From Capsaspora owczarzaki ATCC 30864 (Eukaryota > Opisthokonta > Filasterea), in assembly GCF_000151315.2 (NCBI RefSeq), contig NW_011887294.1, forward strand, positions 591,710 to 655,709: a stretch of DNA of 64,000 bases, given 5' to 3'. Made by a program: the position numbers and the translations under genes. Numbering within the stretch: position 1 is the stretch's first letter; each line of letters starts with the position of its first letter. The notes beneath the pieces were generated by a model. The model did no database searches. It saw nothing but the letters and a program-made list of their open reading frames with translations, and was not told the DNA's origin. Positions 17,235-60,668 of the stretch are shown in pieces.

Positions 17235-20200
17235 TCAACGAGACGCCGCCAAAACATCCAAAAACTTGGTCCGCTCGTTCAGTAAAAGCCGAGAGGCGAG
17301 GTTGGCCACAAACTGAGGGGTGTGCAGCAGGGTGTGGGACGGGTCTTGGACAAACGCCACCACGTACCCGACGTGCTGCTGCAACGGCTCGAGCGCACGC
17401 GACGACGCGGTCTTTTGGAATTGTCGGAGCGCCCTGTCGAGGTTGGCAGCAGCGGACGCCGGTGCAGCATTGGAGCCAGTTGCAGTGGCAGCAGTAGCCG
17501 CGGCGGCAAAGATGACCGGGTTTGACGCCTCGGTGCGCAGCAGCGCCGCATCTCGTGCCGTTGGAGGCGTCGTTGGCAGCGAGAGGTCGGCCGCGAGGAC
17601 TGCCGAAATCTCTGGCATGGAGGCCACCTGCGCGGCCAGGTACAAGGCAGTAGCACGCGCAACAAAGCGGTACTCGACGCTGAACGGGGACTTGGCGCCA
17701 AGCCCAATCGCGTTGAGAATGCCAGTCGGCTCCTCGCCCACTTGCTCCAGTGTCACCAGCAGGTTGCGCAGACCTGTAGCAAGCTCCAGCACCGACGCAA
17801 CATCTCCTCGTTGGACGGCCGCCACCGCCATGGCGTTGCTGGATGGCGGCACAAAGTCGTTCTCATCGCCATGGATGTACTGGGAGCCGTGTTGGGCCAA
17901 GCCGCCGGCCGCAAGAGCCAACTCGGCTTGTTCACAAGCAAGTTGCAAGGTTCGGTGGAGCAGCAGCACAGTCTTGGGTTCACACCCTTGACCTTTGCGC
18001 GCCACGACGGAAATCCACCGCAACATGTCCAGCAACAGGACACGGCGCGAGGGCCAAACGCACGCCGGGAGTTGCATTGCGCCCGCGGAGGGCATGGGGC
18101 TACTCGACGAGCCAGTTGGAGCTTGCAAAAGCTGGAAGCCATCCTGAGCGACGCCAGCACCACCACCCAGCTGCATCAAGGCTTGCGCCAAGATGGCATA
18201 CAGGGTCAGCGCACAGCCCTGGTCTGCCGCCTCCTCGGCAAGTGCGGACAGTTTGTGCGAGGGGAGGCGCAAGCGAGCACACAACACAGACCAGCCATGA
18301 GCTTGAATGAGCGCTGCCGCATCCGAGAGCGGCAGCAACGGCATGCCGAGCTGCTGCTGTTGCTGCATCTGTTGCTGGGCAAACGACTGCTGCAGTTGAA
18401 TCCGATCCGGCGTGGGCATCAGGTAAAAGCGCTGAATGACACCCTCGAGGAGCCAGGCCAGTCGACGCGACGACCCGACAATCCGACACGCCGCAGAAAT
18501 GGTTGGAAGCACGAGTGGCGTCGATTCGGGCCGATCCAAAAATTCTGGAAGCGACTGGGCGAACGCGTTGACAACAGCCTCGCTGGCCTTGGATGTGTTG
18601 AGCAGCTCGAGCACGTCTGCGAGCAGGAGGCTCGTCCAATCGTCCAGCAGGCGCGCGCCGCACAGCCGTGAAGAGGTGGCGACAATGATGAGGTTGCAAA
18701 TGTGACCCATGAGCTGCTGTGAAAACGTGGACAGGCTGTTGAGAGGAACGTTGGCAAGTTTGGCCACCGCGCGCACACAGTAGCGAATAAAGACGGCGAG
18801 CTTCCCAACGGCCCCCTCCAGTCGCGGCAGCTCGACCGCGCCCTCGATCAGGGAAAAGTCTCCAACCGTCTGCAGCAGGCGCATGGCGTGGAATGACCGC
18901 GAATTTGTTTCGAGCAGCGAGTCGGCCGCTCCACGGGCCATGTTGTCGAACGCGACTGATTGGTAGGCCGGCACGGACAGCAAGCCCCATGCCAGCACAT
19001 TCGATTTGGTGGCCACCTGAACCAGCGACTCTTGGGATGGGCCCGAGACCTCGTTGACAAGCCGGAGGAAGAGCCGCAAAAGCTCAGCAAAGAAGGCGTT
19101 GCCGTACGCTCTCGGAGCAGGTGGTTGCTGGTGGTACGGATGTTGCTGAGCCTGGAATTGGCTTTGCAAGTCATCATGCATCTGGCGCTGAGTAATGGCA
19201 AACTGCAGCCGACCAGGATCGCTCAACAAAAGCGGACCAAGCACGCGCGCAATAAACTCGCAGGACTCGGCCGGCCGCGTGTCCATGAGAAGCACCAACT
19301 TGTTGATCGTCTCGAGATCAAGGCGCAAGCGGTGCCACGGAAGCTGGGCAAACGACTGATGATACAGGAGAAGGCATGACTGAGGCGCCACGCTGACAAT
19401 GCTGTGCGTGTAGAACGACCAGAACCACTCGAGCGTGATGGCATCCATAAAGAGCGTATCATGCACGCTCGACATGTCCGAGCACATGGACGTCAGGGCC
19501 TTCGTTGCCACTTGCACAGACTTGACGCCGCCAGACAACCATGGTTCTGGCATGTCCTTGGTCGCGAGCACCCACGGCCCATACAGCTGTTGGACCATGT
19601 CCCAAGCGCCGTGCAGCATCGCCAACATGGCTTGCATGGCGTCGGGATCAATTGCCAAGCTGGCAATATTGCCTCCAGACTCTGTGCTATAGGCACCGCG
19701 AGACTGGACGTGGGCTTCGGCAAGGATGGCTCGACAGGCCATTCGCACGAGCTGTCGCGAGAGTTCGAGCACAGGGTCGACGTACGCACCGAGCGAGCGA
19801 TGCAGCGAGCCTCCCAGGCGTTTGCGGTGATAGAACAACAGTTCGCTCACAAGGCTGGCCTCCTGCGTGAGTTGCTGCCAGGAGCGGGGGAGGAGGCGTG
19901 CGTCGCTCTGGTTGATGGCTGCTGTCGCTGCATTGGGTACAGAGGCAGGCTCATGGCTTGCCTCGTCATCGTCGTCGTCACCATCCAGGTCGCTCTGTTG
20001 TTGGAACGCCTCGGGTTCAGAGGTCAGCGAGAAGCCATAGTAGATGAGCAAGACATCCCACCAAATCTGAGCATCGATCTGCTGGTCGACCGAGCTGGCA
20101 ATGAGCAGACGAATGGTTTCAGTGACGAGGGAGAGCCCCGTTGATGACAGCAAGTTGACCAGCATCTCGCGACAATGCTTAAAGATGCCAGCATAATGGG

Positions 20201-20412
20201 CGGGGACTGTAGCACCACACTCGCAAAGCGCGCGAACAAGCGCGCCGAGAAGCTGGATTTCGTCCTTCAGAGTTTGCCCGTCACGCGCGGAGGTTGCTGC
20301 GCCGAGCCATTCATGCACGTGGAAGCGCATTACCACCCGCTCAAGCGCCGAAACGACCGAGTTGCCTCCGTTTGCCTCTGTTCCCCCAGCAGCTGCCAAG
20401 TCGGTGAGATTT

Positions 20413-20445
<33 letters not shown>

Positions 20446-20451
20446 GTGGCA

Positions 20452-20493
<42 letters not shown>

Positions 20494-23400
20494 GTGGTGG
20501 TCTTGGACACTCCATTTCCGCGCTGGTCGCACAGCAGTCCAACAACACGAACAAACATGGGCACGAACGCATCCGGCACGTTAGCAGGATGGAACAGGTG
20601 GGCCAGATACGGGACCATGGTCACTGGGGCGCGCAGCATGCGATCACAGAGATGCTGTGTTTCCGAGGGAATGGACGCGACAAAACTTTCACCAAGCAGC
20701 GTCAGCACTTCTCGCAGGAACGACCGGGTGGGCGCATACTGTTCCCAGCTGTCGCTGATGAGCGACAAAATGTGATAAAAAATGTGCCGACCGGCCGCTT
20801 GAAGCTTGGGAGCAGCTGAGATCGGGCGCTGCGCGTTGCTGTGCAAGGCCCGAACAACTCGCAGAATTTGCAACACGGCGCGACACACTTGCTCGAGATC
20901 AAACGCCTCTCCTGCAGGGAGAGAATGAACCGCGTTGCGGTTGGCGTCAATCAAGTGCGATGTCCGTTCGTCCGTTTCGCGCAGGCGGTACTTGAACTTG
21001 ATCTGTGCTGGGGCAGAGCACACTCTGGCATGCTTGCGTTGGTCACAGGGAACGGGCACAATGGTTTCCATCTGCCGGTTAAAGTACAGCGTCGGCAGAA
21101 GGTCGAGAAAATCTGCATCCCGGGCCACGAGCACTGCCAGACGAGTGGCAAACGCCCGTGCAGCGCGACCGAGAACATTCATCTCGTCTTGAACAATTGG
21201 CAGGATGTCGCTTTCGCACTGCAAGGAAAAGATGGCAGAGATGGCCTCCTGCGGCACGACAGGAATGAGGCGGGGAGGCGGGTGGCGGACTGCAAGATTG
21301 AGCGCAAGCTCCTTGTAAATTCCAGCCAACGAGGCCGTTGTCGCGGAGGAGCCTCCACCAATGGCAATCGTGACCTCGTCAGACAGGGACTCGGTTGTCT
21401 CACTGCGCGGCGAGCTGCGCGCAGTAGGCTGCACCAACAACGCCGCATCGCCGCCGCCGCTGCCGCCGCGGCGTCCGTTGGACGAGTAGGCGGTCAGAAC
21501 TGCGCGAAGAGCCGAGCGTGGAAGAACATCCATCCAGGGCGCATGCGCGACCGTCTCCGGGTCGCAGTTCTGGGACGAGTGTTGCACGGTCGCGAGACGC
21601 TGAAGTTGCCAAAACGCAGGCTGTCGCGCATCGTACACAAGCAACGGGTTGAGTGCCTCCTGCTTGATCCAGTTCAACATGGCCTCATAGAGCGTGGCAA
21701 GCTCGAGATAGTAGGCGCGAGTGTGGGGAATGCGAACGTCGATCGGGTCTTCGGCGCCTGCCTCTGCCGCAATCAGATGAAGCGGGGACACGTTGAATCG
21801 ACCGCCAGTCGAAGTGATTTGGCTCGAGCGCGCCGCTAGAAGGGCAGCGCTGGACGACGACGGTGAGAGCGCCGCTGCACCAGAGTTCACTGGCAAGTCG
21901 CCCACGCCCGTTCCCGCGCCGCCAGCAGTTCCCTCGCTCGGCGTCGACTCTGCAAGCGTTCGATAGACATCCAGCAACTGGTGCAGCCGAAGCCGCATCT
22001 GATCCAAAATCTCTCGCTGAGTGGCACTAAAGTAACGCTGGCCAATAAAGTACATGCTGGCAGGTGCCATGCTATTGGTGCCCTGGGGCGCACGCTGGCC
22101 CCCAACAGCGTACGGATTGGGAAACGCTTCAAAGTAAAGCCAAAAGAACATTTGCCAGAACAGCGGCAAGACGGGGCAGCTTGTTGGCAGATTGAGGGCA
22201 TAGTATGCCCACTTGTAGATGGTAAACTGCTCTAGTGGGACGAGCTGTGGCGCCTTTTCGACATGCGACCGGTGGACGGCGTCGGGCGACATTCGAATTT
22301 CGCTCAGCAAGAGTCCCGAGAAGAGCTTCCGAACGCTCGTTTCTTGGCATGTTTCCATGAGCAAAACCTGGAATGCCAGCCACGGGAACTTGCCGGGAAG
22401 CGTCACCGGGCGGAAGAAGGGAATGAGCGACGACACGGACCAGTTTTGTGGATTGTTCAAAAAGCTGATGGGCGCGGCAGGCAGCGCTTTGGACGTGGCC
22501 GCAGAGATCAAGTTCAACAAGGGACTGAAAAACGAGGACGCGCCGCCAGCAGAAGCATTGTTTTGAGCGAGCGGTGCTTGGTTGGTGCCACGATCGCCTT
22601 GAAGCGCAGTGTAGCGGGCCAGCAGCGTGGAGAGCACGCAAGGATGCCAACCAACAACCATAGAGACGCGGCAAAGCGCATCCACCACAAGGCGGACATC
22701 GTTGCGGTTGTACCAGCCAGGAATGGCTGTCAACGCGAGGGCAAAGAACTCTGTCCACTGTCGCTGAGCCACAGGAGAGTCGGCGTCGACAAGCACCAGT
22801 CGATGAATGAGGCGCACGAGCTGTCCGAGGAAATCCGTTGGCGCCGACGGTGCCAAGAGGCTGACTTTCTGCATGGCGAGGCTCAACGGGTTGCTAAACA
22901 TGGAGGCGTCTGCACGAACTTGCGCTTCCAAAATGGAGACAAACTCGGGCATGTTGGCAAGCGCTTGCGCTCGACGCTCGACCCAAACTGGCAGCATGTC
23001 GTGCAAGAGGCGGTTTACACCGTCAAAGCGGTACCACTGCTGCAGTTGAACCAGCTTTTCAAAGCTCGCTGCGTCGATCGAATTCTCCGCATATCCCAAC
23101 TTTGTCATCTGCAGCACACAGTACATGCCGAGCGGGACATCCTGTGCTTGCACAATGGCGGCAGCGCGCTCATCGGACAACTCCATTGGCGCCAGCGGGC
23201 GATCAGCCATCAAGTGTGCAATGCGGAGCGTCTTTTGCTCCCATTCGGATCGTTCGTTGTTTGGATGCTCAGGCTGCTGCTGCTGCTGCGACTGCTGTAG
23301 CGGTTGCTGCGACGTTGATTGGACCCGAGCCTTGTCGTGGGGAAGCTGGCGTCGTTGCAGCATGGTAGTGGACATCCACGGAAAGTCACGCGCTTGTGGC

Positions 23401-26400
23401 CCGAGGGAGCCATGGTGGGAAGGGCGTGGTGCGCCTGCAGGCAATCGAAGTTCCAACCTCAACATGGTTGACCAAGCCCACTCCCCAAAGACAATTTCTG
23501 CTGCGCCGAGCGTTCGCTGCGCAATAGCATTCAGCTGGCTCAGGTAAGTGGTGGCAGGTGGCACGTGAAAGTGGTTGGCCTGCAGAAGCAAGAGTGCGAA
23601 ACGCCAATGCCACGTTGTGTCGAGGAACAACATGTCCGAGTTGAGTGGAATGCGGTGGGGCACGGGTGGATGCTGCTGAGATGAAGGCGGCAGCGGCGGA
23701 TGCGCGGCCAATCCCAAAAGCGACTGAGCCTGAAGTGGCGCAACCGTACCCCAGTTCATCTGCTGAATCACGTGCTGAGCAAGACGGATGCGCAGTGAGC
23801 CGAGCGGGGCAAGGAGCATGCTTTGCAACACGAGAAAGTCGTCCTCGGTGAGATGCCAGCGCGAGTACTCCAAGCCTTGGAAAAGCGCCAGCACCGGAGA
23901 GCCCAGAGCATCAATATCGGTACGAACGCGTTCGAGCAGCATGGACACGACGATGGGATGGCGCTGGGACACCACGCCAATCAGGTCGTGCCCGGACTTG
24001 TGGCAAAGCTCGCGCGTCAAAATGTTCACGTACGACACTTCGAACAGCTCTTCGACAATCACAGTGACGAGCTCGAGATGCGCGCGCAAATCCAGCTGGG
24101 TCACGGGCGACAACCCGGCGAGAGAGCCCGAGGCAGATTCGTCAAGGCTGTCCGCCGCCGTGGTGGGCGACCGAGCCGAATGGAGCGTGTTGAAGAGTCG
24201 CTCAATGGGTGTACCCGTCTTGCTCGCACCGCCCACAGTTGAAGCAAGTCGCGTTGCCGAGGAATCTGTGCTTAAAGCGCCCGCAAGATTGGCAAAAGTG
24301 GTCAACAGGAAGATGGCCTCAGATGCGGACATGCTCATCACAATGTCCGCAAACCGTTCACGGAAGAGGGGTTCTGCATTCGTCAAATAGGCAAGAGGGA
24401 TGATTCGGAGAAAAAAAGCGGAACCAATGATGAGAAAAAAAAATCAACAACAACAACAACAGGAAAAAAAAAAATCCATCCATTCCCAAAAGTGGGTTTA
24501 CCTCGTTGCATGAATCGCTTCCAGGTGCCATAGTCGCGAACCCGTAGTAGTTGATAGTCAATGTTGTGACGAACCTCAAGACGACCAGTGAAGAGGAGCA
24601 AGAAAATTTCCCAACGCGTGCTGACGGAAACACACTCGAACGGAAGATCACAGAGGAACTGCCAAACACCCGTGCCCCGAGCCCCGAGGAACGAACGAAC
24701 CGCTCGCAGCAAGAACTGGTCGTACTCGAGCGACAGGATGGCCAAGTCCTCATGCAACCGCCGCGCTTCGGCAGCCAAATGTGGAGCGGAGCTAGCGTGC
24801 ATGCATGGGGACTGGATTTGGCGGTAAAACTCGGCAGTGCTGGGGGATTCGAGCTGGAGGCCAGCGATAATGGGAGAATAGTAATCAGCCGGAGCCCCAG
24901 CGGACATGGGGTGGGTTGCTTGGTAGCTCTGGGCAGCAGGGCGCGTTGTCTCGCTGAATCGCGCGGCACCGCCATCGACGTTGGCCCGCTGCTGCTCGTG
25001 TTGGCGGATGAGATGAACAAGCGACTGACGATAGAGAATCCAATGCGCCGAGACGAACTGGACAGATTGGGTGATGGTGCGAGCAATTCGCTTGAGGAGA
25101 TGACCATTTCCGCTCGGAGGCACTTTGGCGAACACGGACGCGAGCAACTGCACAAAATGCGTGCCATAGGCCAGCAGCCGGAGCAAGCCTTGTGAAGATT
25201 GATGCGTTACGTCGTGAGTGACGCGATGGACGCTGGAAGACGAGCGGCTCGCCGTGTTGGAGGTCGAGGTGTGAGTATTATTGTTGTTGCGCGGGGCCGC
25301 AAAGCGCGACCCGAGAGCCACAGAGGGGCCATGCCGCTCGTTTGCCGACACTGGCAACGGATGTGCTTCCATGTGAATGTTGAGCACGAAAGAGAACAGC
25401 CGACCGAACGGGAATTGTTCCAGCAATGCGACCATGTCGTCTTCATTCAGCACGCACGCGCCAAAGCGCGGATAGAGTCGGCGAGGGCCAGCCACGATTG
25501 GCACGCTTGGGCGAACGGCTGGTGGCAATCCGGGAGCATCTGGCGCGGGAGTCACCACATGCGAGTCGACGGAGGCAGACGACGGTTCCGGCATAAAGCT
25601 TGTATCGACCACGACCCACTCATTTCCACCAGAGGCCCCTTCTGGCTTGGGAGCTGTTGAAGTGGGACCAGCGGCGGAAAGAGGAGGCGGAAACACGGGT
25701 GCTGTCGCAGGCTCGACGGTTTGCTGGGCGGGCGAGGACGGCGCACTGACCAGCAACTCCATCGGGGAGTCGGCGTGCTCATTCGACACCGACGGATGTC
25801 CGCCTTGCAGCTCCGCGGCAACCGAAAATGTAGGGGCGGCAGCGCTGGATTCCCGGGAAGCGGAGCTCGCCGCCGCCACATACAGCGGCGAGAGCAGGGT
25901 GGACAGCTGGACTCCAAACAAGTCAACTCCGCCGTCGTCCAACTGCTCGGGAAACTGCAAAAGCCGGGATCCCCATTCGCCAACTCCACGGCAGCGAACC
26001 AAGTGCAGCAGGAGGTAGCGATGGTCGCTCACAGAAGCGCACCGCAATAAAACGGAGGCCTACGCAAAGCAAAAAGCAAAAGCAACGCGAACATGAGGAA
26101 CGACAAGTGAACAGCAAAAAAGCGGGTTCGACAGCAACATTTGCTTACCAGCTGGTCAATCCACTGTCGAAGCGATTGCCGGAACTCTTCTATCGGTGGA
26201 TCCGACCGCAAAAAGATAAAAAGCACATCGAGGAACCGTTTCAATAGATCTACATCGGGACGAGCGGATGTTGTCGCGTCTGGCAACGACACAACAGGTG
26301 ATGCAGGTGTCAACTGCGTAAAGGTAGCGGATTCGGCCAGAAACTCATCCAGATAGAGGCAAATTTGGAGAAACGCAATTCGGCTTTCGTAGTCGTACTC

Positions 26401-32073: not shown

Positions 32074-35000
32074 TTAGGGTGCGTTCAGGAGCGCTACGGG
32101 AATGCCAGACAGCTCTTGCAAGTCGGAAATGAGCTTTGGCAAGTAGTCGGTGACTTCCTGCAAAACATTCGGACGCGAAGAGTTCCGCTTGGTCGCTTTG
32201 AGGAAGTGCTCATGTGATCGTGTCAATTCCTTGGCCAGACGTTTCATGGCATGTCCAGGAGCGCACAAGACCGAGATGCGTTTTGTTCTGAGCAAAAAAA
32301 TAAAAAAAATTACACAAGGCAGATGATTGGTCAGACAATCTGCAAAAATCATGACAAGCTTCATCGATACCGGATCTCACGTACCGAAGCAGGGACACCA
32401 TGATGGGGTTTAAGTCGAGCAAGTCCGCCCATGTGAAGATGAGCACGGGGTAGCAATTCGGGTTGAGCTTGTTGACAACATACTGAAGCATGGCATTCTG
32501 TGCAACCGAAGAGAAGAAAACAACAACCAGATGAGTGCAGGCAAAAACACAAGGGGGCCCGGTGTTGCCAAGATTGGTGAGTGCGGTGCTGCAGGCTACC
32601 AACCTTATCCGTAAGCACTGTCACGTCCATAAAGTCAATCACTTTGAACTTCTTCTTGATCGTTGACGCCTTCTTTCCAGCTCGAACAACAGGATTGTGG
32701 AAGGGAGCAGTTGACGCACAAAGGCGATTGCCTCCCATAATCTGTTGAAAAGGAGCGGAAACGGCACGAAAAGGCGCGGTCAATACAACAACGAAGTGGT
32801 CAAATACAACGAAGCGGTGAAATACAAGGAAATCAACCACACTCACCGATGTACGAACACCAAACTGATTCCATAAGGTTTCAAGCACAAAGGAAAGGCG
32901 CATGACATTGACTTGCTCGGGAGTTGGCTCCATGTTGGGATCTTCCCACGAATAGCAAAAGCAAAAGTATTGCGGAAGGCTGCCGGGGGTGTAGCCGAGC
33001 GAAGCAGGTAGACCAGAAGGAGCCGTCGTGAGACTCATCAGGCCGGGCAGCGCAGAAGAATCGGACTCGTTGGGTGGATGGCGAAGAGTGCCAGGTAGCG
33101 AGGGCGACCGGGCCACAGGTTGACGAGCCAGGCTGTCAATCACAGCATCGTGCGAGTTGAAAAAGCGCAGCAAGGACGCGCGCACACCGCCAGCCCTTGA
33201 CGAAAGAGCGTGTGGATCGATGCTGGCGATAATCTCCCACGGCAGGGCGTGGAAGGCACGCGAAGAAATGAGTGCGATATGCTGCGAGCCGGCAGAAGAG
33301 TTCGACCCAGGCAAGGACAGCGCGTGAGATGCGAGTGACGAGCCCGCGGTGCCGGTACTGGAGACGCTTCCTTGTGGAGAAGGCTTGCGCGCGCTGTCCC
33401 CATGGCGAGCCGCAGGACCAGCATCCAACAGATGGGAAGTTGGAGCTCGCGTTTCGTCGTCCAGACCAAAGGAACTCTCGCTGCAGGTTGCCAGCGCCGT
33501 TAGGAGAGGCGCCATGTTGCTGAGCACAGTGGCACGCATGCCTCGAACAATATGAAGCTGCTCGTCGAGGCTCAAGACCTCGCCTTCGATGGAAGGATGC
33601 CGCGTCACATTCAAAAGATAGTCGAGCAGCACGCACATGCGAGGAGTAAACAGGCTCGACCGGTACTTGCCGGGAGTGAGGATGGGACGCAGGCCCACGC
33701 GGGAGCGCAATCGCTCGTCCACATCGACAATGCTGGAGAGCGCACCGAACGCATGCGAGCGTGTCGCGCTGCCTGAAAACACGGGCGGAGCCTGCACCAG
33801 CTGGTTGCCAAAGCCGGCGCCACCCGAGATGGAGCCGCTTGTGCTGCCGTGGGATGTGATGAGGCTGTTGAACGTGCTCTTTCCGACAGTCGATGGGCCG
33901 GTGGTGATGGGCTCCGATGACAGGAACACGAGCAGAGGGTCGTGCGACGAGCAAAGACGCAGTACGTTTGGATCAAACAGCTGGAACAAGAGATGTTCGG
34001 AGCTGTCAAGCGACAAGTGCGCCAACGACTGGCCAGAGACGCCGTACATTTGAATGCCCTTCACAGAGCTGCCGCCCTGCCCACCTCCGCCACTTGGTGC
34101 GCTCCCGCTCGAGCCGCCGCCGAGGCCGGCGCCTCCCATCAAGCCACCGGGACCGCTGCCCAGGCTGCTGATGGACGCATGCGGCGAAGATACACCACCC
34201 GAGAACGAGGCGAGCGACTGTTCAAACATGGCAAGCAACAATTGCTGGAAGCCAGAGCCGGACGACGTCACTTCAATAATGGGCTCGACACGGGATTTGG
34301 TGATGCCAGACACGGCAAACTGCTTGAGGAAGGAGCATAGCAACTCGATGGGCGTAATGGCCGAGAGACTAATCTCAACGTTGCTCTCGGGCATGTCCAG
34401 AATGGCAAAGCGAAGGTGCAGCACCATTGTTTTGAGCGCCTGGAATGTGACGCTGTCTCGCGATGCTTGGTCTTCCACCAACGGACGGCCACCGAGACGC
34501 TGCACGGGGCGGAATCCAGCCTTGACATCGAGAGATGAGTGGCACAGCGACAGGTCATCGACGCGCAGGGCATACATTGTGCGCCGGAGGCGCGGAACTT
34601 GACCGGCAACCTCAGGCAAGGAAAGGAAGCGACGACGCTGAAGGAGCAAGGTGCCATGCCGGGGATCAGCGTCGACCGCAGCGGCAGTGGTTGTGAGCTG
34701 GGCCTCCGGACACATGGCAAGATTGATGAGCGTATGCCGGGCGACAGCTGCGCGCAGATTGTCGAGACAAACTCGGTTGTAGGTGCGCAGTTCTTGCTGT
34801 GTGATTTCGCTGGCAGAGTACTTTCGAGCGAGCCGTCGCATGTGTTGGAGGCAAGCCCAGACGTGCTGAGCGACCACGGCATCATCTTTGCAATCCACCA
34901 CATCGCCAATCAAGTCGTAGCACTCTGCGCCATACAGACTGGTCGACTCGAAGAGCGTTGACGTCATCGAAATGGTATCGTCCTCGCGAGCGCCCTTGAT

Positions 35001-35285
35001 GGTGCTTGCGACAGACGTCGTGGCCGAGGTGACGTCGCTCGACACAAATGCAGGAATGGGCATGCGACCAGGGCGGGTGGCAGCTGCCGGCGTCGTTGCT
35101 GCTGGCTCGGCCCCAGACAATGCAGTGCTCGTATTGCCATTGCTGCTGCTGCTGCTGCTGGTCATCGAGTCAAAGATTGCAGTCATTGTTGGCTTTTTCT
35201 CCAAAGTGGGCTTTGCAATCTTGATTGGAGTAGACGCGTGGTACGGCATCGCACCATCGGGCTTTTGCGACTGCGACTGGACCGA

Positions 35286-35318
<33 letters not shown>

Positions 35319-38300
35319 TTGTTGCTGCTGCTGCTGTTGCTGCATGGTGCTCGATGGTTGCTTGGTGAGCGGCGGGTGGCCCGAGCGGCGTGCGGGCTCG
35401 AGTGTTTTGCCTCTTGTGCGACTGAGAGTGAGCGCCAGATCGTCTTCCATTTGCGCAATCGCGTTTTGGGCATTGGCAGCCGAGGACAAGCTGTTCCCCG
35501 CACTGCCCGAGCTCATGCTGCCAGAGCTGTCGCTGCTCGAATTCTCGTTGGGATTGTTGGAAGCGCGATTGTTGCCACCAGCCGTGGCAACCTTGCCCGA
35601 CTTTGCCTTGGCCGTCCTTCGGCCCTTGCCGTACGCGGTTGTGGTGGCCTCAAAGCCAGACAGCGTCGTGAGCTCGCCGTCAGCATTCCACTTGTGCGCC
35701 GCGTCGTGAGCCGCTTCAACTTGCAGGAGCAAGTCCAGCAGCACATAGTTGCGGTTGATCAAGTCCGAGCTGACGCCAAACATAAACCGCACCATGCGCT
35801 TACAAAGCGACAAAAGACGCGATGTAAGCCCTGGCGAACTCGTGGCGGGCAGCAACAGACGCACGCCGCTGTAAAACACGGACAGAAAATGGTCACGGCA
35901 CTCCGTCCAGAACACGAGAGCGCCAGCCACGTTGCCCTGGAGCAGCCGGAGCTCTGCCATGGAAATCAATCCGCGCATCATGAGGAAGAGCGAATTCATC
36001 TCATTCGCCGTGTCAAGGACGGTCACGAGCGGTTGCTCGATGGCCTCCAAGGCAACCAGCTTGCGGCGGTTGGCGGCGCCAGACTGGGGCTTGGTGGCGG
36101 ATTTGACCGGCGTGGATGCCGATGCGCCGCCGGATCCAGACTCGCCGATAAAGTCGCCACGAGGCAAGTTGAGCAGGCAAACGGGGGCAAAGACACGCTC
36201 AAGGTAGGTTTCGGAAATCCGACACAGTGCTTTGGCCATGTGCAGGTCATCGCCAACGGCGCGATACAGTTCAAAGGCGCGCTGGAACTGGGCCGCGGCC
36301 GCGCGAACGAGCTCTTCGGTGGATTCGAAGGACACCTTGTTCTGGAGCAGCTGCGACATGGCTGACGCTGCAGCTGTGGTTGCACTCGCCTTTTTAGCGC
36401 TGCCGGGAGTGGATGATTCGGCAGCAGGTGCTGCGGTGGATCTTCCACTGGTGACCACCGTGGGGACTGACGCGCGCCCAACGGTCGTCGAGCGAACCGA
36501 AACAGTCCTCTGGAAGCCCTTGCCGCCGGCAGCAGACTGCTGCTGATGCTGCTGCTGCTGCTGCTGCTGTTGCTGTTGTTGCTGTTGCAAAATTTGCTGT
36601 TGGTGCAGCGCCGAGGGGTTGGGATCGGTTGCCGTGTCTGCAGACTGAGGCAGACGCACGGGAAACTCGACCATTGTTGAAGATCGGCAAAGATGCTGCA
36701 AGACTTTGCCGCGCAAGTACGACACCCGCGCGAAGGCGCTCAAGTTGTTTGGATGAACATATTTGAGAGCCTGAGCACACGCCGAGATCGCCTCAGAGTG
36801 ACGCTCGGCGTGGTAGTGATTGCGAGCGACCAGAAGCCAAAAGTCGAATGTGTCTTGAATCATCCTCATGTTCGAGAAGGGCAGAACGTGGAACGAGTAC
36901 ATGTCTGCGACACTGGCAATGTTTGCCGAGTTGCGCGCATGCCCCAGGGTGGAGTACTTTTCTCCTGCGAGACCGTGAGCGATACCAGTGCCACTGGCAG
37001 GGTTGTTGTTGTTGCTCTGTCCATCCCCTGCGGGAGGACTTGTGCCAAGCCCGTTGCCAGCCTCCGCCCCGTTGCTGGCCTCGCCAATGGTGGTCATGGC
37101 ATTGGACTGCCGTCGTCGGAATTGGATGGGAATGTGCGGCAGCGACTTTGTCTTGAGATGCTTGGCAATCGCACCGATAGGCCGCAGCGTGGCGTGCTCG
37201 TCGTCACCTTCAGACGGTGCTATGATGGCGTCTTGCGGTGACGAAAAAGAAGCAGAAGAAGAAGCAGAAGAAGACGTTGGGACGAGCGAGCCGCATGACG
37301 ACATGGGTTGGTGGGTGAGAAGCAAACCGGACGACTCATCCAGCCAACGCTTCTTCATGTACGCCTCGGCCAGTCGCAGCTGCAGCGTGCCGTGGCGCGC
37401 TTCGGGATGCACGTTTTCGAGCATGCGCTCCAGCAGATCAATGCCCTTTTCAATTTCAAACCCGTCGTCGACATGGAGACGAACGAGGCGCGAATTGACT
37501 GTGGCCGACATGGGATCCATGCGTGCGAGCGATGCGCTGGGTACAACGGCAGGGGCAGCCAAGTTCATGGTGGCGGGCGTGGCTTTGGCGCCAGGGAGTC
37601 CGGTGGTGTCGGAGGACGTTGGCGCATACTGCATGGGCTTGGTGCGGGTGGTCGATGGCACAAGCTGGATGGCGCGGCGCATGCATCGAACGGCTCGTGC
37701 ATGCAGACCTTGCTCGCTAAACATGTTGGCCATCAGGACGGAAATGTGCACAATCTCGTTGGTCTTGCGTTCTCGCTTCATGATGGAAAGCAGATGGGAG
37801 TAGTACTCGAGTGCGCGGCGCATGTCGTGATGATCGGCCGCGACAGCAGCCAGTCGACTGAGTTGCTGACGTTCCGCTTGCTCGTTGGTCTGCATCGTGC
37901 TGAGCACAACCGACTCTTCGAGAGCGAGCACTCCGAGTTCGTACCGATCATTTGACAAGAGCAGTTCGCCAAACACGCGAAGAGCGTTGCGACCGAGACC
38001 ACTGATGATGTGCGGGAAGTGCGGGAGCACGGGCCGGCACCGATCGAGCACAACGAGACACTCCATCAGCACGCGCTCGGCACGAACATTGTCGTTGAGA
38101 TCGTGCCAGAAATGCACGCCCAGCGCGTACGCCGCCTTGGCCTTGATGGGCGACAGCGGCAAGCGAGCGTAAACCTCGTCGAGCAGCCGCATGCGGTACG
38201 AGGCTGACGACAAGAGCTGGGCGTCGATCGGAATGTCGGTCGCGTTGGCAGCGGCGGATTCGAGTGGGTTGAGCATTGAAATTCGACTGCGGCTGCCAAA

Positions 38301-40783
38301 CCGGGCCCTCGCTCCGGCTCCAGCATTGCTGGACGACGAGTCTGGGCTCTCGCCGCCCGAAGGTGAACTTCCAAACAGCCCACGGGCCACTCCCGAGGAG
38401 CCGGCATTATTAGCGCCGAGTCCTGCTGGTTTTGGGGACAGGTTGACCTCAGCGTCCAGGGAATCCATATGTCGCATGCGGCGAGTGGGTTTTGGCGACG
38501 CCGTCAGCGGCGAAAAGGTCTGGAGAATGAGTTGCAAGTCCAAAAGCGCCCGCGCCTGGCAAAATAGGGGTGTACGCTCCAGCGGAGTGGTTTCCAGAGG
38601 CGGCTGAGCTGCCAGACTTGCTCGCTGATAGACTTTACAGAGCGCCGGCAATAGGCTGTTAAGTGTGTGTGTGTGTGTGGGGGGGAGGGCACAACGCAAT
38701 GAGTAAAACGCGCAATAAGTGGTGCAACGACAGCAACGACAGCAACAACAACAACAACAACAAAGAACAACAACAAACGTAACCTACTGGTCGATTGACA
38801 GCGTTTGGGCTTTCCGCGCATGATGCACTTGCATTTCAACTTCGAGCAGCCGAGTGGCGTCACGGTATTGAGGCTCAATGGTCGTGAGGGTGGTGGCCAT
38901 CGCAGAGAAGGTGGAAATGACGGGCTGGCCGAGAGCATCGCTTGGCACGGCTTTCGCGGCGACCGAGAGCAGGTAAAAGGCGATATGGGTCACGCCCTCT
39001 CGTTCGAAAACATTGGACGCGGTCATGGTCGCTAGTTGATCGAAAAAGCTCTTGCAGGAGAGCCAGCATTGCTCGCGATCTCCACAGCGTTCCAACTGCC
39101 GAACAGCCAGGTAGTATGCCTCCGCCCAGGGAACGGTGTGGACTTTGACTGTGCACAGAGTTTGCCGCAAGTTGCTTTGGATTTCGGTTGCGGACAGTCG
39201 CTCTCGGTGGAGGAGTTGGGCGGGGGTCGCTTCCGCCTCGCTGGAAGTGTGGTGGGCAAAGAGCAGGTGCTTTGACACGAGATGTGACAGCCAATTCATC
39301 TGCTCCTCGATTGTTTGGAAGAGCGATGTGGATGCAAACGACGTGGATGAAACTGTCGTGGTGACGCTGCCTGGAGATGACGACAGCAACCCAGAAGTAC
39401 TGGCGGGCGAACCCGATGGAGATTCTGCATCTCCCAAGGACAATGAGTGCTGAAAGGTTCTCCCGAGCTTCAAGGAATACAGCTCGGTAGGAATTTGTGA
39501 TGGATGCAAGGCAGGCGCTGCTGTGGGTATTGCTGTTGGGAAGATGGGTGCCGCGGAAACGGATGACTTGGAGGTGGTTGTGGTGGATGATTTGCCGGCA
39601 GCGGCGGCGGCGGTGATGGTGGTGGTAACAGAAGCAGCACCCGGTGCACCAAGGCGCAACGAGGCAGGGATAGCATCCGCACCACGCACACTGCCGGTGG
39701 GAATAGAGTTGGAGCGTGAAATGCCGCCGTTTGCTGGCTCTCTCCCCAATCGAAACGCTCTTCGAAATCCAAACTGCTCGAGCTCGTCTCGTGCATCCGA
39801 AGCGGATGTTCCAGACGAAAACCCGAGGCCGTTACTTGCACCATATCCGCTGGCGTTGGCATTGGTGGAGACGGGGGTGGAGTAACTGCCGCTGTGCGAT
39901 GGCGAAGAGTTGAGGAGCAACTTCAAGCTGGGATTGCCGACCGGCGCAATGCCCAACTCTGCATCCCAATCCTCGTCCTCATCATCCGCATCGTCATCCG
40001 TGGATGGTTGAATCGTTGCAGGTTTCTTTGGCGTCACAGGACCTGCAGCTACAGGCGCGGTTGGTGCAATACTAGTCGTAGAATTTGTTCCTGAGGGTTT
40101 GTCTGCTGATGCGACCGCTTTGCGAGCCGCCGTCGGTGACGATTCTTGGGAGGATGAAGACCCTGCAGAGGAAGGAATGCGCCTTGGTAGCCGCTTTGTC
40201 ACAAACGATGGTGATGTTCGTCCAGACGAGCTGCCGGACGTTGCTGATGATGAGGAAGTGCTCTGAGGTTTGGCCGCGAAAGAGACCGATTTGCCACCTC
40301 CTGCTGCCGCACTACTATTAGCATTCTTGAGCTCCTTGAGGAACTTTTGAGCATCTGGTGTTTGTGTCGGTTGGTGATGGCAACACGAAAAGACAAAAAA
40401 AAAAAAAGAAAGAAAGTGTGAGTTGCTGCACGATCATGGAGGTTGGTTGTCGATGAATCGGGGGAGTTGCTCACCTTCTTCGTCGTCCGTGTTCTCGCCC
40501 CAATCAATCTCGTCGACGTTAAAACCTTCGGGGAGTTGCTCGGCATCGACGGACGGCACTTCGTTCTTGACACGGACGTGGTTGACGGCGGCGCTGCGGA
40601 CGACACTGAGCGTGCGGTGGAACTTTGCAGTCTCCTGCGAGGTCATGCTGAATGCGTCGTCGTCGTCGTCAAACTCGTCGTCCCAATCCTCAATCACGCC
40701 TGCAGGAGCTGCTCCCGGGTTGGGGCTGCTGCGCGCTGCGGTTGAGGCATCGCCTAGCTGGCTTGAACTGGCTGCCGTTGTCG

Positions 40784-40815
<32 letters not shown>

Positions 40816-40952
40816 CCCGCCGCGGGTCTCCGCAGCGTAAGTGTGAGTGTAGATGGCTTTGCAGCATTGTCTCCACTGCTGCCGTCGCTGAGGTCAAAGC
40901 CAAACTCGTCGTCGTCGTCCTCGTCATTCTCATCGCTGCTTCGCGGCGGCAT
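32074..40952 (-). CDS. Giant TPR-like protein with acidic DW motifs and C-terminal CHAT/separase-like domain
   Basis: Six exons: 40952-40475, 40354-38788, 38655-32847, 32741-32604, 32497-32385 and 32287-32074; 2772 residues, all in phase. I cannot name it. The N-terminal 230 residues are acidic, with tryptophan-centred motifs IEDWDDEFDD, DEIDWGENTDDE and DEDWDAELG. A helical part (about 440-680) is followed by TPR-like repeats, for example SNDRYELGVLALEESVVLS and EQGLHARAVRCMRRAIQLVP (about 820-1010). Long Ser/Gln-rich linkers intervene. Near residue 2470 ALISSRAFHALPWEIIASID resembles the strand-PWE motif of separase and other CHAT-fold proteases. Further on, YPVLIFTWADLLDLNPIMVS resembles the separase segment after the catalytic Cys. 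I see no clear catalytic His-Gly or Cys, so any protease activity is doubtful. Microtubule or cell-cycle roles would be speculation. Confidence 0.75.
35284..35345 (-). repeat. Poly-Gln tract (about 20 Gln) in the TPR/CHAT-like gene
   Basis: The plus strand reads (TGTTGC)n and then (TGC)n; the minus strand codes an uninterrupted Gln run after SSTM. Mixed CAA and CAG codons indicate an older, stabilised repeat. Confidence 0.9.
36538..36603 (-). repeat. Second poly-Gln tract in the same gene
   Basis: A Gln-rich run with a single His interruption is encoded on the minus strand between LHQQQILQ and SAAGGKG. It consists of CAG and CAA codons and keeps the frame open. Confidence 0.85.
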
Positions 40953-44422: not shown

Positions 44423-44534
44423 CTTGTACAACTTTCACAGCGAGATCCAGCACCGCAGCTACAGCAAGTTTTGCTTTCACATAAACAAACAAAAAAAAAG
44501 CCTCTGTCGTTTCAGTCTTCTGCAATCGTCGGCC

Positions 44535-47500
44535 ATGCCTTCTGTCCTTGACGGCATCGGGGACGAGGGCGGTGACGGGGCAAAGGGTGCAGCGCCGCCG
44601 CTGGTCGCTCTGCGCCCGTTGTACATCAGCTCGACCTTTTCCGAACTGGCAGCACGGCCGTGCGCCATCGACTACACCCCGGGCAAGGGCGGCGCTGGAG
44701 CGGAGGACCGCGTCGCTCGAATGGCCCACAAAATGTACACTGAAGCGCTGAGCGTGATGACGTTCGACCATGAGCGCGCATATGTGCTCTTCCTCCACAG
44801 CGCCGAGCTGGGAGTCAAGCTGCGTGCCGGCCACAAGGTGTCCAAGGACGAAGCGGCGCGGCTGGCCAAGCTCGTCACCAACGCAATGACAGCGGCAGAG
44901 ACGCTCAAAGACCGCCTCAAAGCGCGCTACGAGCACGAAGCCCAGCGCGCCAAGCAACGCGAACGGGAGCACCAGCTGCAGCTGCAGTCGCAGGAAGCCA
45001 GCAAGCACAACCCTGCGGGTGCGCAAGGGCCAGCGTCCGCGTCAGCCTCCGCCCACAGCCAAAGTGACTCTCCCGCCGCTCAATTGGCAGCGTCCAATCT
45101 GACCGAGCAAGACGCGTCTGGGACACGGAGCCACGACCATGCGGCAGAGGGTAGCTATGGCAATGACACTGTCGGTGCAGATGGCATTGCCGATGCAACA
45201 GCGTCGTCGGTAGGTTCGCAGTGGTCGGCGGGCGCAAGCCTGTCGTCATCACTCCCGTCCGACTGGTCGCCGGCGCATAGCCCTGGGCCAGGTGCTGCTG
45301 GCTCTCCTCGGCAGCATCCTTCGGCGGGCAGCCCAGTTCCGAGCAAACAGAACGCAGCCGCCGCCGGTGGTGGTGGTGGTGGTGGTGCGAATCATGGGAA
45401 GGGAGCAGCGGCGCAGCCAAAGCAGCGAACCATCTCAGCGTCGGAGGTGTTTCTGAGCGACCAGAAAACAAAATCCACGCCCTTCTTGCAACCCATGCCA
45501 GTCTCGACAGATGCACTCGCCAATTGGTCGGTGTTTGAGGACGCCGGATTGAGCAGCAATGACGCTGCAAGCTCCATTGTCGCGTCCTCATCCACGTCGT
45601 CGCTGACATCGATCGGATCGCTCCTGCACGGCCCGTATGACCACTTAGGGCTCATTACGCCACAGGAATTCTTCCAAATGATGAATAGCAAGCTACCCAA
45701 CCACCTGGCAGTCCTCGACATGCGCAGCGCCTCGGAAATTGCGTCGTGCGCGTTGCGTTGGCGCGACGCTGCCACACTTCCGCCACAGCTCCTCAAGGCC
45801 AACACATCCATTGGCGACCTTATTCCGTCTTTACCACGAGCCTGTGCTGAGCTTCTCTCCCGGCGGACCGAATTTGAGCATGTTGTGGTTGTCACTGCGT
45901 ATGGGTAAGGCGAGCGTTTTGTTGTTGTTGTTGTTGTTGTTGTTGCTGCTGTTGTGATCGGTCGTTTCGCTGGTTGCTTCGTCCTCTTACTCGCAAGACC
46001 ATTTCACAAACGATGAACAGCAATGCGACCGACCTGCAACTGGAAGAGGCGCCCGTCCGCATTCTGTTTGATAGTATTTATAAATGGGACTTTTCCTCCT
46101 CTCCTGCCCTGAAAAACCATCTGCGCTACCTGAGTGGAGGCATCTCGACGTGGCAGACCCTCTACCCGGCGCTGTGTATCACGCAATCGCCTTTGGCCAA
46201 ACACACGCTGTCGAGCAGCCTGCCGGCCCACTTTGGTCAAACGGCCATCTCGTATCCATCCTTGATGACGCAGGATCAACGCACGCTGTTGGGGGAGGCG
46301 GGCATTCCGCTCCCACCCGCGTCCGCGGCAGATCGGCAGCTTGTGGCCTACCCCGAAGTACCTCGGAGTGCACTGCTGGAAGAATTGGACAGACAGGCAG
46401 AGCTTGCTCGCAAGGCCGCCATCCGCGCTCAAAAGGAGCAAGAGGAGATCGCGCAGCGTACCATGCAGGCCGAGCTCGAGGTCAACGCGCGCGAGGCCGC
46501 CAAGCGTGCTGCCGCCGAGGCCGCACGCGTGGCCGTCGAAGCGGATCGTGTGGCGCGGATTGCTGAACAACAAGCTCGCAAGCAACGTCAATTGGAACAA
46601 GAGCAGGAGGAATTGCGAAGACAAGCGGCCGCTGCACAAGAAGAAGATGAAGCGCGGCTGGCGGCGCAGCAGCAAGCGGCCGCAGCAGCAGCTGCAGCAG
46701 CGGCATCGGCTACTGCTCCCCCTGGAGACTCCCTCGATCGCACGACCAAGCCGCCCCGGGCTGTGTTCTCAAAATTGCCCCCCGCAGGTGGCGATGCCAA
46801 TGCCTTTTCAGTCCAACCTGCAGCCCCGCCGTTGGCACACTCTGCCGTGGCAGCGGCCGCAGGAGCAACCACTGCCACCACCGTCATTCCAGTCATCAAC
46901 CCGGAGGAGCGTGCTGCCAAACCGTCGCTTACTTCACTCTCTCCACCCCTACAGCCACCACCACCCCCAACGCGCGCCTCCGCGCCACCAGAGGCAAACC
47001 TGTCTGCACCCAAACCAAAATTCGACCAAAGCGTCAATCGCCAAATTGCCACGCCATCCCAACCACAGCCCATCCCTCGCGGTCGCCGCAAGTCGTTCGA
47101 TGGAGCTCTTCCCGGACAGTCACCCTCGTCAGATATGATTGGCACGAGTCCTTCCTTCCAGCAGCAGACGGCTGGTCGGTCACCAAGCACACGCTCTGGC
47201 ACGAGCCCATCCGCCTCTGTGATGTACGGCTCGCCTTCTGCGGCACCTGTGCAATCTTCGGCGTACGGCGGAGTAGGGGACGGCTTGACGGGCTTGCGCA
47301 ATCTGGGCAACACGTGCTTTATGAACTCAATGCTGCAGTGCCTCAGCCACACCATGCCTGTGACCGCCTACTTTATCAGCAACAAATTCCGACAAGACGT
47401 CAACCGCTACAACCGTCTTGGGCGTGGAGGCATTCTGGCGGAAAGCTTTTCAGAGCTTTTGCGCAATCTCTGGCTGCAGCGCTTTCGATGCTTCTCGCCT

Positions 47501-49314
47501 TCCGACTTTCTCGGTGCTGTGTGCCGATTTGGTCCGCAGTTTGCGGGTGGCGAGCAGCACGACTCGCAAGAGCTGCTTGCCTTCCTTCTGGATGGCCTTC
47601 ACGAAGACCTCAATACAAAAGGCCTGACCAAGAACAACCAGCAGCTCATCACGCAGAGCGATGGCACGCGTGCGCTTGTTGCGGCCTTGCCAAACCGAGA
47701 CCAACAGGAAGAGGAGGACGAGGCTCGACGCAACATGCCGGTTGAGCTCCGTGCCGAGCGCGCCTGGCAGCGATACAAGCAACGGAACGACTCGGTCATT
47801 GTCGACATGTTCCAAGGATTGTTCAAGTCTTCCATTCAATGCGACGTTTGCCGCCACGCGTCCATCACATTCAGCCCCTTTATGTTCCTTTCGCTTCCGA
47901 TTCCCTTGGACAAGACCCACCCGACCTTGGCGGATTGCATTGAGTTGTTTACTCGAAGCGAGCGCATCGACGGCGAAAACCAATGGTTTTGCGAGCGCTG
48001 TCGGCAGCATCGAAGTGCCGTGAAATCGCTCCAATTGTGGAAGCTCCCGCCCGTGCTCCTCATCCACTTCAAGCGTTTTTATTACGACGGCCCATGGCGG
48101 GACAAGCTGCATCACTATGTTGAATTTCCTCTCGAGTAAGAACAGGCAGTGGTGGTGGTGGTGGGGTGGTGGTGTTCAAGAGCTTGTTGGTTTTGTTACC
48201 AGTGTTGTTGGAATCGGTTGGAGTCATGCTCCTGCTGGGGCGGTCCATTTGCTCAACCTTTGATTGGTGTTGCTCTCTTTGCAGTAATCTGGACATGAAC
48301 CCGCACGTCATTCACTCGGCTCGACGGCCCTCTACAGATGCGCGCATTCCAATTGCTCCGTACCATTTGTATGCCGTTTCGGTATGCACAGTGTTCGTGG
48401 CTGTGTTTGAGTTGCGCTGCTTTCCTTGTTTCAATTGATTGAGGCGATGCGAAAACAAACTGATTGCCGCGTCCTTGATTGTGGTTTCCAGCTGCCTCCT
48501 TATTGTACACTCATTTGTCTCATTTGTCTGATTTGTCTCATTTGTCGCGCTCTCCTTGAAACCAGAACCATGAAGGGACGATGGAAGGCGGACATTGTAA
48601 GCCCCAATTTATCCCCTACTCCCTTTTCCATACACAGACACAATCCGATCCGGATGCATTCCTTCGGATGCAAATGGATGCATTGATTTGCTTGTTGCCA
48701 ACAGAATGTGGCCTGATTTTTGAAACGTCGTTCGCCGATCGCGGTTCAGGCCGTTTTCGCACTCACTTCCGTTTATTACTTCTTTGCTCTCGCAGATATT
48801 GCCTCCTGTCGCAATCCAATATCCCGCCAGTGGTATCAATTTGATGACAGCGTCGTTCGCCGTCTCACTACGTCGGTCAAGGTGGGTAAATTTGGATGTT
48901 CACATTTCGATGCGAATTCGATTCGCAATTTCGACTTTGTTTTTCCTTCTTTTGGTTTGTTTTGTACTTTTTATTTTTTTATCTTTTTGGCAAATTGATG
49001 TTTGGCCCGTTGCCTCGGCCATTCTGTGCCCCTTCTTTCGAGCCGCCATGGACGTAGTCGATGGTTGGAAGACACTGGACTTGAATGAAGAGTTGGAGTG
49101 AGCGCTGCGAATGACGAATTTTTTTATTGATTATTTTTGTTGTTGTACTTTTTTTTTTTTTGGTTTTGTTTTGTTTATGACTCGCATTCTTGTGGGCTGG
49201 CCTCATGATCTTGTTCTCACCTTGTAGACTCGAGCGGCGTATGTGCTCTTCTACACGAATCTGGACTTTGACAAGTACGTGCACCGGCACTTGTTCGAGC
49301 CCTCAGCCGAATAA
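44535..49314 (+). CDS. USP8: Ubiquitin-specific protease USP8
   Basis: Six exons: 44535-45904, 46021-48135, 48285-48381, 48566-48596, 48796-48881 and 49228-49314; 1261 residues. The layout is that of USP8/UBPY. A USP8-dimer/MIT-like domain comes first (YTEALSVMTFDHERAYVLFL; about 30-145), then Ser-rich linkers, then a rhodanese domain (LITPQEFFQMMN, HLAVLDMRS, LKNHLRYLSGGISTWQTLYP; about 370-510). A Glu/Arg-rich coiled coil (about 575-690) precedes the catalytic USP domain. The Cys box is GLRNLGNTCFMNSMLQCL (nucleophile near residue 888). QFAGGEQHDSQELLAFLLDG follows, two CxxC pairs form the zinc knuckle, and the His box is EGTMEGGHY (about 1204). USP8 removes ubiquitin from receptors and ESCRT-0 at endosomes. 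Exon 4 is only 31 nt and encodes the His box. Confidence 0.95.
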
Positions 49315-52161: not shown

Positions 52162-53712
52162 ATGATGGCAAGCTCCAACTTTGCCCCCGCGATGCAGACT
52201 GTTTTGGTGGACACGCCGCCACAGCAAGGCCAAAGCCGATCTGTTCTGCTGCAACCGGCGAGTGCCGTGTCGGCCAGTGCGTCGCCCACACAACTGAAAA
52301 ACAGGCGATGCTTGCGAGTGGATCCGATAGCTGCTGCGCGCCGCGGCGAGGCGTCTGCATCGAGCGCGACCGCTGGCACACCCACCGGCTCTCTTGCGCG
52401 CACACGGCGTCGCGTTGTCATGGAGGACCCCGATGATCATAGCAATCCGGCGTCTCCCGTTAGTCCAGTTACTGCAAATGGCACTTTCGCCGACTTGGGG
52501 CAACCAGATTCCAGCGTGACTGCCCCTGAGCTGCAGCAACACCAACAGCAACAGCCCGAACACCTCGAGCACCTCGACCAACTAGACGCCCAACCAAGCC
52601 AATTGCACGAGCAACCACCACCACCACCACAACAACAACAACCATGCTCGCCGCAACAAGAACTTGCAATGACGGTTTGCGATGGCAGCTCGGCCACACG
52701 AGTTCGGGTTGGGTCTGTCGTTCTAGAGGAGGAAGTCCCCAACCAGGCGCGCGACTATCCATCCACGCGCTGTGTGGGCTACTGGGCAGCCGACCCCGAC
52801 TACCATGTTCTGATCAGAATTATTCCCAAGGCAACGGCGCCCGTCGCAAAGCTCGCCAGCGAAGTTGCCGTGTCGCTGCAACTCGCGGACGTTCCTGGCG
52901 TGGTGCATCTTGTTGACTGCTTTGAAGATGCCGACAACCACTATTTGGTGCAAGAACACTGCCCCGACCCCCGCGCAACAAGCTTGCTCGACTTTGTCAT
53001 GCAAAACGGCCGTCTGCACGAGTGGGTTGCGCTCGAGCTGTTTGAGCGCATTCTCCAGACGGTTTCAGACGTGCACGAGCGTGGAGTCGCGCTGTGCAAC
53101 CTCTCGCTCGACGCCTTTGTTTTGGTGCCAGAACAGTGGGATCCCGAGCAGCCCTGGCTTTCAAGTGCCGACGCTCAACCGATCTCCCATCCCAAAATGG
53201 GCCCCGACCATCGACCAACCGTGGGCCTGCGTCCCATCTTCCACGACCTTTGCGCGGCAATGCTGGCTCAACCCGACACCCTCCTGTGCGAGCCGTTTGG
53301 TGCCGCCGCGTACATGAGCCCGGACATTTTCGCCTGCCGCCCATACAGCCCGATGGCAAGCGACGCATGGGCTCTTGGCGTCATCCTGTTTGCGCTGGTC
53401 ACCGGAGGCTTCCCTTTCAATTCCGCCGTCCCGCCCATGCTCGTCAATGACGCTCGCCGAGGCCATTTTTCAACCATCAACGGCTTGTCTGCTGGTGTCC
53501 AGCACCTCGTGCACGCTCTGCTCAACCCGGTTGCCGCTCGCCGTGCAACTGTTGCTGAAGCGCTTGCGATGGTCCAAGAACTGCGGCAGACTTGCTTCAT
53601 CATGCAGCAGTCTCACGGTGCTCTCTACCAACTCAACGGCGCCAGCATGCCGGGCAGCAGTGTGCTTTCTTCCGCTTTTGTGCGTTCGGGCGTTACAACA
53701 GCCTGTTGGTAA
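52162..53712 (+). CDS. Tribbles-like pseudokinase
   Basis: Single exon, 516 residues; a second ATG follows immediately. The first 190 residues are low-complexity (Gln, Pro, Ser). A kinase fold spans about 205-475. Key catalytic residues are absent. The beta-3 segment is YHVLIRIIPK, with Arg at the usual Lys position. The catalytic loop is HERGVALCNLSLDAFVL, where HRD is replaced by LCN. No DFG is found. The back half is well preserved: GAAAYMSPDIFACRPYSPMA, then SDAWALGVILFALVTGGFPF, RRGHFSTINGLSAG and VQHLVHALLNPVAARRATVA. This closely parallels Tribbles proteins (AYVSPE, DVWSLGVMLYTLLVGRYPF, RRGQF). Tribbles act as scaffolds that bring substrates to the COP1 ubiquitin ligase. The typical C-terminal COP1 and MEK1 motifs are not evident, so the partner is unknown. 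Assignment to Tribbles rather than another CAMK-like pseudokinase is likely, not certain. Confidence 0.8.
   Translation: MMASSNFAPAMQTVLVDTPPQQGQSRSVLLQPASAVSASASPTQLKNRRCLRVDPIAAARRGEASASSATAGTPTGSLARTRRRVVMEDPDDHSNPASPVSPVTANGTFADLGQPDSSVTAPELQQHQQQQPEHLEHLDQLDAQPSQLHEQPPPPPQQQQPCSPQQELAMTVCDGSSATRVRVGSVVLEEEVPNQARDYPSTRCVGYWAADPDYHVLIRIIPKATAPVAKLASEVAVSLQLADVPGVVHLVDCFEDADNHYLVQEHCPDPRATSLLDFVMQNGRLHEWVALELFERILQTVSDVHERGVALCNLSLDAFVLVPEQWDPEQPWLSSADAQPISHPKMGPDHRPTVGLRPIFHDLCAAMLAQPDTLLCEPFGAAAYMSPDIFACRPYSPMASDAWALGVILFALVTGGFPFNSAVPPMLVNDARRGHFSTINGLSAGVQHLVHALLNPVAARRATVAEALAMVQELRQTCFIMQQSHGALYQLNGASMPGSSVLSSAFVRSGVTTACW

Positions 53713-60636: not shown

Positions 60637-60668
<32 letters not shown>

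Follow-up and report, generated by a model that had tools for sequence, protein, structure and literature searches.

A giant TPR-repeat protein of Capsaspora owczarzaki without a recognisable protease pair and with a possibly separase-like C-terminal region

Analysis of a 64,000-nucleotide stretch of DNA from Capsaspora owczarzaki ATCC 30864 (contig NW_011887294.1; hereafter the window) reveals a gene for a giant protein on the minus strand. Its six exons (40952–32074) splice into a frame of 2772 codons with no stop inside it, and the five introns are all of the GT-AG type, with lengths of 120, 132, 105, 106 and 97 bases. The 2772-residue model that an earlier note had placed at 32074–40952 is recovered with the same length and ends after splicing, as an uninterrupted frame. 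The exons are as follows:

40475..40952, minus strand: exon 1, residues 1–160, ATG at 40952, model-frame codon-usage score 0.232; acidic and of low complexity, with acidic W motifs 1 and 2
38788..40354, minus strand: exon 2, residues 160–682; low complexity, ordered-looking from about residue 505
32847..38655, minus strand: exon 3, residues 682–2618; TPR-like repeats interrupted by low-complexity runs, after which the C-terminal region begins
32604..32741, minus strand: exon 4, residues 2619–2664, including the strand-like KFKVIDFMDV
32385..32497, minus strand: exon 5, residues 2665–2702, including YPVLIFTWADLLDLNPIMVS
32074..32287, minus strand: exon 6, residues 2702–2772 and the stop codon; carries ISVLCAPGHAMK with H2714

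When codon usage was learned from five further long frames of the window, the model frame had the highest score among the three frames in all six exons; for the short exons this is weak evidence, as exon 4 reaches only 0.08 and intron frames can score equally high (some at 0.2–0.28). The protein comprises three acidic W motifs, stretches of low complexity and TPR-like repeats, and ends in a region with strand-like and helix-like segments.

Several other open frames were noticed in the window. At 17235–26059 on the minus strand, a 2383-residue frame (17235–24386) adjoins a 554-residue frame (24383–26047); no Pfam family is found in either at E 0.01, and together they possibly encode another giant protein. 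Adjacent plus-strand frames at 44424–48139 match USP8_dimer (2.1e-4, sub-cut-off) and UCH (1.6e-45), possibly forming one USP8-like deubiquitinase gene. A homologue of the Sin3 co-repressor, with PAH, Sin3_corepress and Sin3a_C domains, is encoded at 59698–63732 (plus strand), and a 15-base CAACAACAGCAACAG repeat lies inside its region at 61126–61232. Frames with an SNF2-related domain (2062–3909) and with a protein kinase domain (52162–53712) are also present on the plus strand.

The acidic DW motifs reported earlier for the giant protein correspond to three acidic W motifs, at residues 90, 151 and 289:

40644..40697, minus strand: acidic W motif 1, residues 86–103, VIEDWDDEFDDDDDAFSM
40476..40520, minus strand: acidic W motif 2, residues 145–159, NVDEIDWGENTDDEE
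39951..39995, minus strand: acidic W motif 3, residues 280–294, DDADDEDEDWDAELG

Residues 1–500 are mostly acidic or of low complexity, and a Pfam scan of residues 161–681 gave no family up to E 5, a limit to be read, here and below, with the restriction that the HMMER filters discard most matches above approximately 0.1. A Byr4/Bfa1-like or kinesin-light-chain-like source of the motifs was considered; no literature connecting Byr4 with Capsaspora was found.

The helical repeats claimed for this protein are TPR-like, as indicated by Pfam, AF2, Foldseek and phmmer, and they occupy approximately residues 834–1129:

37314..38201, minus strand: TPR-like helical repeats, residues 834–1129
36759..36842, minus strand: additional TPR-like repeat, residues 1287–1314 (Pfam TPR_2, 0.0023, sub-cut-off)

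In the scan of exon 3, Pfam TPR_12 matches residues 948–1013 at 6.9e-6, under the gathering cut-off; a shorter piece gives TPR_12 at 7e-6 and TPR_2 at 1.7e-4, both under the curated cut-offs, and the TPR protein LapB is listed by NCBIfam at 0.00075, far under its cut-off. The AF2 model of residues 834–1129, computed without an alignment, consists of helix pairs with a mean pLDDT of 52, rising to 65–77 in blocks within 944–1013. Comparison of this model with the PDB by Foldseek places many TPR proteins among the best 50 of 426 matches; the matches listed include LGN and designed TPRs, with a best E of 0.17 and none under E 0.001. With phmmer, the TPR-like part retrieves designed TPRs and TTC29 at E 0.003–0.007. 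The region has the character of a TPR repeat protein, with 34-residue helix-turn-helix repeats, and the assignment is sound.

We further analyzed the C-terminal region by sliding six separase and four CHAT blocks along the entire 2772-residue protein. Two of the positions retained are:

33204..33278, minus strand: LPWE block, residues 2475–2499, IALISSRAFHALPWEIIASIDPHAL, rank 1 in the protein
32089..32142, minus strand: C-terminal block, residues 2751–2768, LPKLISDLQELSGIPVAL, rank 2 in the protein

The separase LPWE block, expected ahead of the catalytic domain, is found with its top score at 2482 (29.7, against a mean of −14.2 and s.d. of 6.3; runner-up 20.3), and the CHAT LPF block also ranks first here, at 2475 (residues 2475–2496). 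The end block, SGIPVAL (compare separase YGLPVSL), stops four residues short of the C-terminus. When the last 300 residues were shuffled 5000 times, the separase score of the LPWE segment AFHALPWEIIASI was reached once, that of the end block, which was chosen after the fact, 17 times, and both jointly in none, and neither score was reached in any of 132 stop-to-stop frames from bacterial loci, some of which encode CHAT proteins; these shuffle and frame figures overstate the case, as the blocks were inspected after the resemblance had been noticed.

Between the two ends, the whole-protein scan gave no convincing in-order match for any of the four remaining separase blocks. The best C-terminal ranks of the NP, His and Cys blocks are 8, 14 and 36, and the LWDVTD block ranks first at 2504, yet out of order and without the W. 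The earlier note had quoted two segments as resembling separase and CHAT proteases. Both occur in the spliced model and the resemblance holds for the first, which ranks first for LPWE/LPF, but not for the second, which is poor as an LWDVTD block: TWADLLD (W2687, in YPVLIFTWADLLDLNPIMVS) ranks 678, 424 or 74 in three registers, and no LWDVTD block was recognised. Placing W2687 at the position of the Cys was also tried, and is unconvincing with rank 395 at best.

As for the catalytic residues, the C-terminal region contains neither His-Gly nor a GCSS-like Cys block, as had been noticed before. A Gly-His-Ala occurs at 2713–2715 (ISVLCAPGHAMK), and H2714 falls in the register of the separase catalytic His (rank 14; match at 2707, one of two tied) and in that of the CHAT catalytic His (rank 34), the best C-terminal match of the CHAT His block being at 2649 (rank 6), where there is no His. 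The last 300 residues contain five Cys (2580, 2582, 2626, 2679 and 2710); since none of them follows H2714, there is no separase-like pair. In the best C-terminal match of the Cys block (rank 36), a Gly occupies the place of the Cys. Moreover, Gly-His 2713–2714 comes after the segments that, in the LW reading, are expected downstream of the His, and a catalytic His (GHG) followed by a catalytic Cys (GCSS) was not found. The absence of a recognisable His/Cys protease pair is well supported.

Comparison of the whole region with CHAT and Peptidase_C50 profiles, suggested earlier as a check, gave scores at or near chance over the whole domain. Pfam gave no PF03568 (Peptidase_C50) match up to E 5 in the last 300 residues, and no CHAT, C50 or credible family in C-terminal pieces, the sole listing being Not1 at 0.15 and 0.07, sub-cut-off. 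No family was found by NCBIfam in the C-terminal region, and phmmer against the PDB yielded noise alone (best E 0.93). Using a CHAT alignment constructed from 80 bacterial loci, hhalign gave a probability of 1.2, with a score equalled by 5/100 shuffles (300 residues) and 6/100 (loop-trimmed); against a first separase profile of two sequences, the human one and our own consensus, the corresponding counts were 5/100 and 1/100. However, hhalign gives only 21% for human separase against CHAT (98.9% for Csx29) and is therefore underpowered at separase-like distances. With hmmsearch, the separase profile scored 2.8 bits, equalled by 5/500 shuffles and by 0/70 control segments (bacterial open frames, frames from the 64-kb window and the first part of the protein itself), in an alignment that spans 2477–2499; the CHAT profile scored −1.0 bits, equalled by 17/500 shuffles and 15/70 control segments.

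In our own profile alignment, the local score for separase was 37.0, compared with 26 ± 4, and was equalled by 1/100 full shuffles, 0/100 window shuffles and 2/70 controls; over the whole domain, the counts were 5/100, 9/100 and 10/70. Against CHAT there was no signal, the local PSSM score of 19.5 being identical to the null mean of 19.5; it was equalled by 50/100 full shuffles, 44/100 window shuffles and 32/70 controls (whole-domain: 45/100, 16/100 and 33/70). A second, cleaner separase profile was built from three solved separases (7NJ1, human; 5U1S, yeast; 5FBY, Chaetomium). Its local score of 32.2 was equalled by 1/60 and 1/60 shuffles and 1/69 controls with one gap setting, and the local counts with the other setting were 0/60, 5/60 and 5/69; whole-domain scores were equalled by 1/60, 3/60 and 3/69 or by 1/60, 1/60 and 0/69, depending on the gap setting. 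With this profile the hhalign probability was 1.3 and the hmmsearch score 0.5 bits. Csx29, a true relative, scores similarly against it (local 36.0), so that such tests do not exclude homology. The local separase alignment covers the LPWE block alone, and the whole-domain alignment places the catalytic blocks implausibly. AF2 modelling of residues 2039–2618 alone, the exon-3 part of the C-terminal region, failed, with a mean pLDDT of 34. By the profile scores, similarity to separase is borderline at best and that to CHAT (PF12770) at chance; no profile similarity to CHAT across the domain and no match to the Pfam profile of Peptidase_C50 (PF03568) were found. No literature was found that joins CHAT domain, tetratricopeptide and Capsaspora, or pseudoprotease and CHAT domain.

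The genome of Capsaspora (27.46 Mb, 29 contigs) was searched with a trimmed C-terminal part of 492 residues (3 candidates scored), and the 8 matches are all pieces of this gene, which appears to be single copy at this sensitivity. Searches for homologues elsewhere gave no match at E 0.01 for residues 150–1936 of exon 3 (best 7981 word-sharing candidates scored; the search words were probably swamped by low complexity), none at E 1 for the C-terminal 259 residues (691 candidates) and, for the joined ordered TPR parts, a single TPR protein at E 7.4 among 7997 scored candidates, which is noise; among viral contigs, none of 14 pattern matches was confirmed as a homologue. As the exon-3 search did not recover the protein itself, the collection probably does not contain Capsaspora, and the absence of homologues says little. 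The conserved pseudoprotease scaffold envisaged in the earlier note is not confirmed, since these collections yielded no relative.

Within the Capsaspora genome, neither CHAT and C50 family searches nor consensus separase and CHAT queries and a human separase fragment yielded candidates; in the control for these searches, the CHAT family search alone gave control-genome matches (1/14). Scans for LWDVTD gave 0 matches, for YxGHGxG 6 matches (6/6 inspected, none separase-like) and for a GCSS-type pattern 16 matches (4/16 inspected, none separase-like); with no positive control, introns able to split the motifs and 4/16 GCSS matches inspected, the absence of separase from the rest of the genome does not follow from these scans. 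They do not contradict Table 2 of PMC3195147, which lists a separase for Capsaspora. In the same genome, T-box matches lie on two contigs, in approximately four places, and integrin-beta matches on four contigs, a picture that would fit Capsaspora owczarzaki.

The protein may be explained as a giant TPR scaffold or adaptor without catalysis, possibly with a degenerate separase-like tail, a combined reading that we hold tentatively, at somewhat under even chances. Its scaffold part is the likelier one and is well supported in itself; the separase part, taken separately, is possible but doubtful, its basis being the two short end blocks, and from the sequence comparisons the tail would be matched better by separase than by CHAT. 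At least as likely as a decayed separase-like tail is a TPR scaffold followed by an unrelated module of alpha/beta type (Rossmann/flavodoxin-like or TIR-like), with the LPWE and GIPV matches arising by chance, which we regard as a serious possibility just short of an even bet. The strand-like segments QYFCFCYS, KFKVIDFMD, YPVLIFTW and RISVLCAPG, read by eye, alternate with helix-like ones in a manner common to many three-layer alpha/beta folds, and such a module agrees with CHAT scores no better than those of controls and with the lack of in-order matches to the middle separase blocks. On the other hand, Pfam and NCBIfam show no alpha/beta family in the C-terminal pieces, and the two separase end blocks stand in the correct order, the second being four residues from the C-terminus.

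The gene might also encode the ordinary, active separase of Capsaspora with mispredicted active-site exons, in line with the entry in Table 2 of PMC3195147 and with motif scans that located no canonical separase elsewhere in the genome among the matches inspected; this is very improbable, as exons 4–6 score best in the model frame and contain no Gly-His-Gly or Gly-Cys-Ser-Ser block. The least probable of these readings is a TPR-CHAT protein of the TTC28 type. TTC28 has a TPR-CHAT organization, and the order of TPR-like repeats and a putative CHAT-like region would fit, as would the similar protein size, but the TPR matches are few and weak and no CHAT match was found.

Separase is likewise very large, with a helical solenoid in its N-terminal part and inserts that are disordered. 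The giant protein resembles it in size and layout, in an LPWE block at the start of the C-terminal domain and possibly in a GxPV block where that domain ends, but it lacks a convincing Cys/LWDVTD block, its Gly-His is not followed by a Cys, and it is unmatched to separase in Pfam or in the PDB sequence search. With the bacterial TPR-CHAT proteases (PF12770; Csx29/Craspase) it would share the proposed layout of TPR and C-terminal caspase-like region, and the LPF block is matched, whereas its CHAT profile score is that of shuffles and control segments and there is no dyad. In PMC9729208, TPR-CHAT is described as structurally related to separase, with catalytic residues H585/C627, and H2003/C2029 in the human protein. 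The succession of helical repeats and tail in the giant protein parallels the layout of both. Ordinary TPR proteins such as LGN/GPSM2 have the same TPR-type helix pairs, but not the long low-complexity and polyglutamine insertions, the acidic W motifs and the extra C-terminal region.

In the scaffold reading, the TPR solenoid would bind peptide partners, the acidic W motifs could serve as short docking sites, and a binding module might be formed by the C-terminal strand/helix region. The tail may have arisen by decay of a caspase-like (separase/CHAT) domain, keeping the first strand-loop (LPWE) and the last strand (GIPV); as the catalytic pair would have been lost, we propose partner binding, not cleavage, as the likely activity. 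A more specific version, in which this unicellular relative of animals has retained a catalytically dead separase paralogue as a giant TPR scaffold ("pseudo-separase"), is in our view unlikely; if true, the protein could engage the substrates or regulators of separase but leave them uncut. Should the tail not be a decayed separase domain, the protein would be another unannotated giant TPR scaffold, mainly of use for annotation. If it is one, the protein would count as an inactive relative of a protease that is essential in the cell cycle, and it would be informative on the pre-animal evolution of separase regulation.
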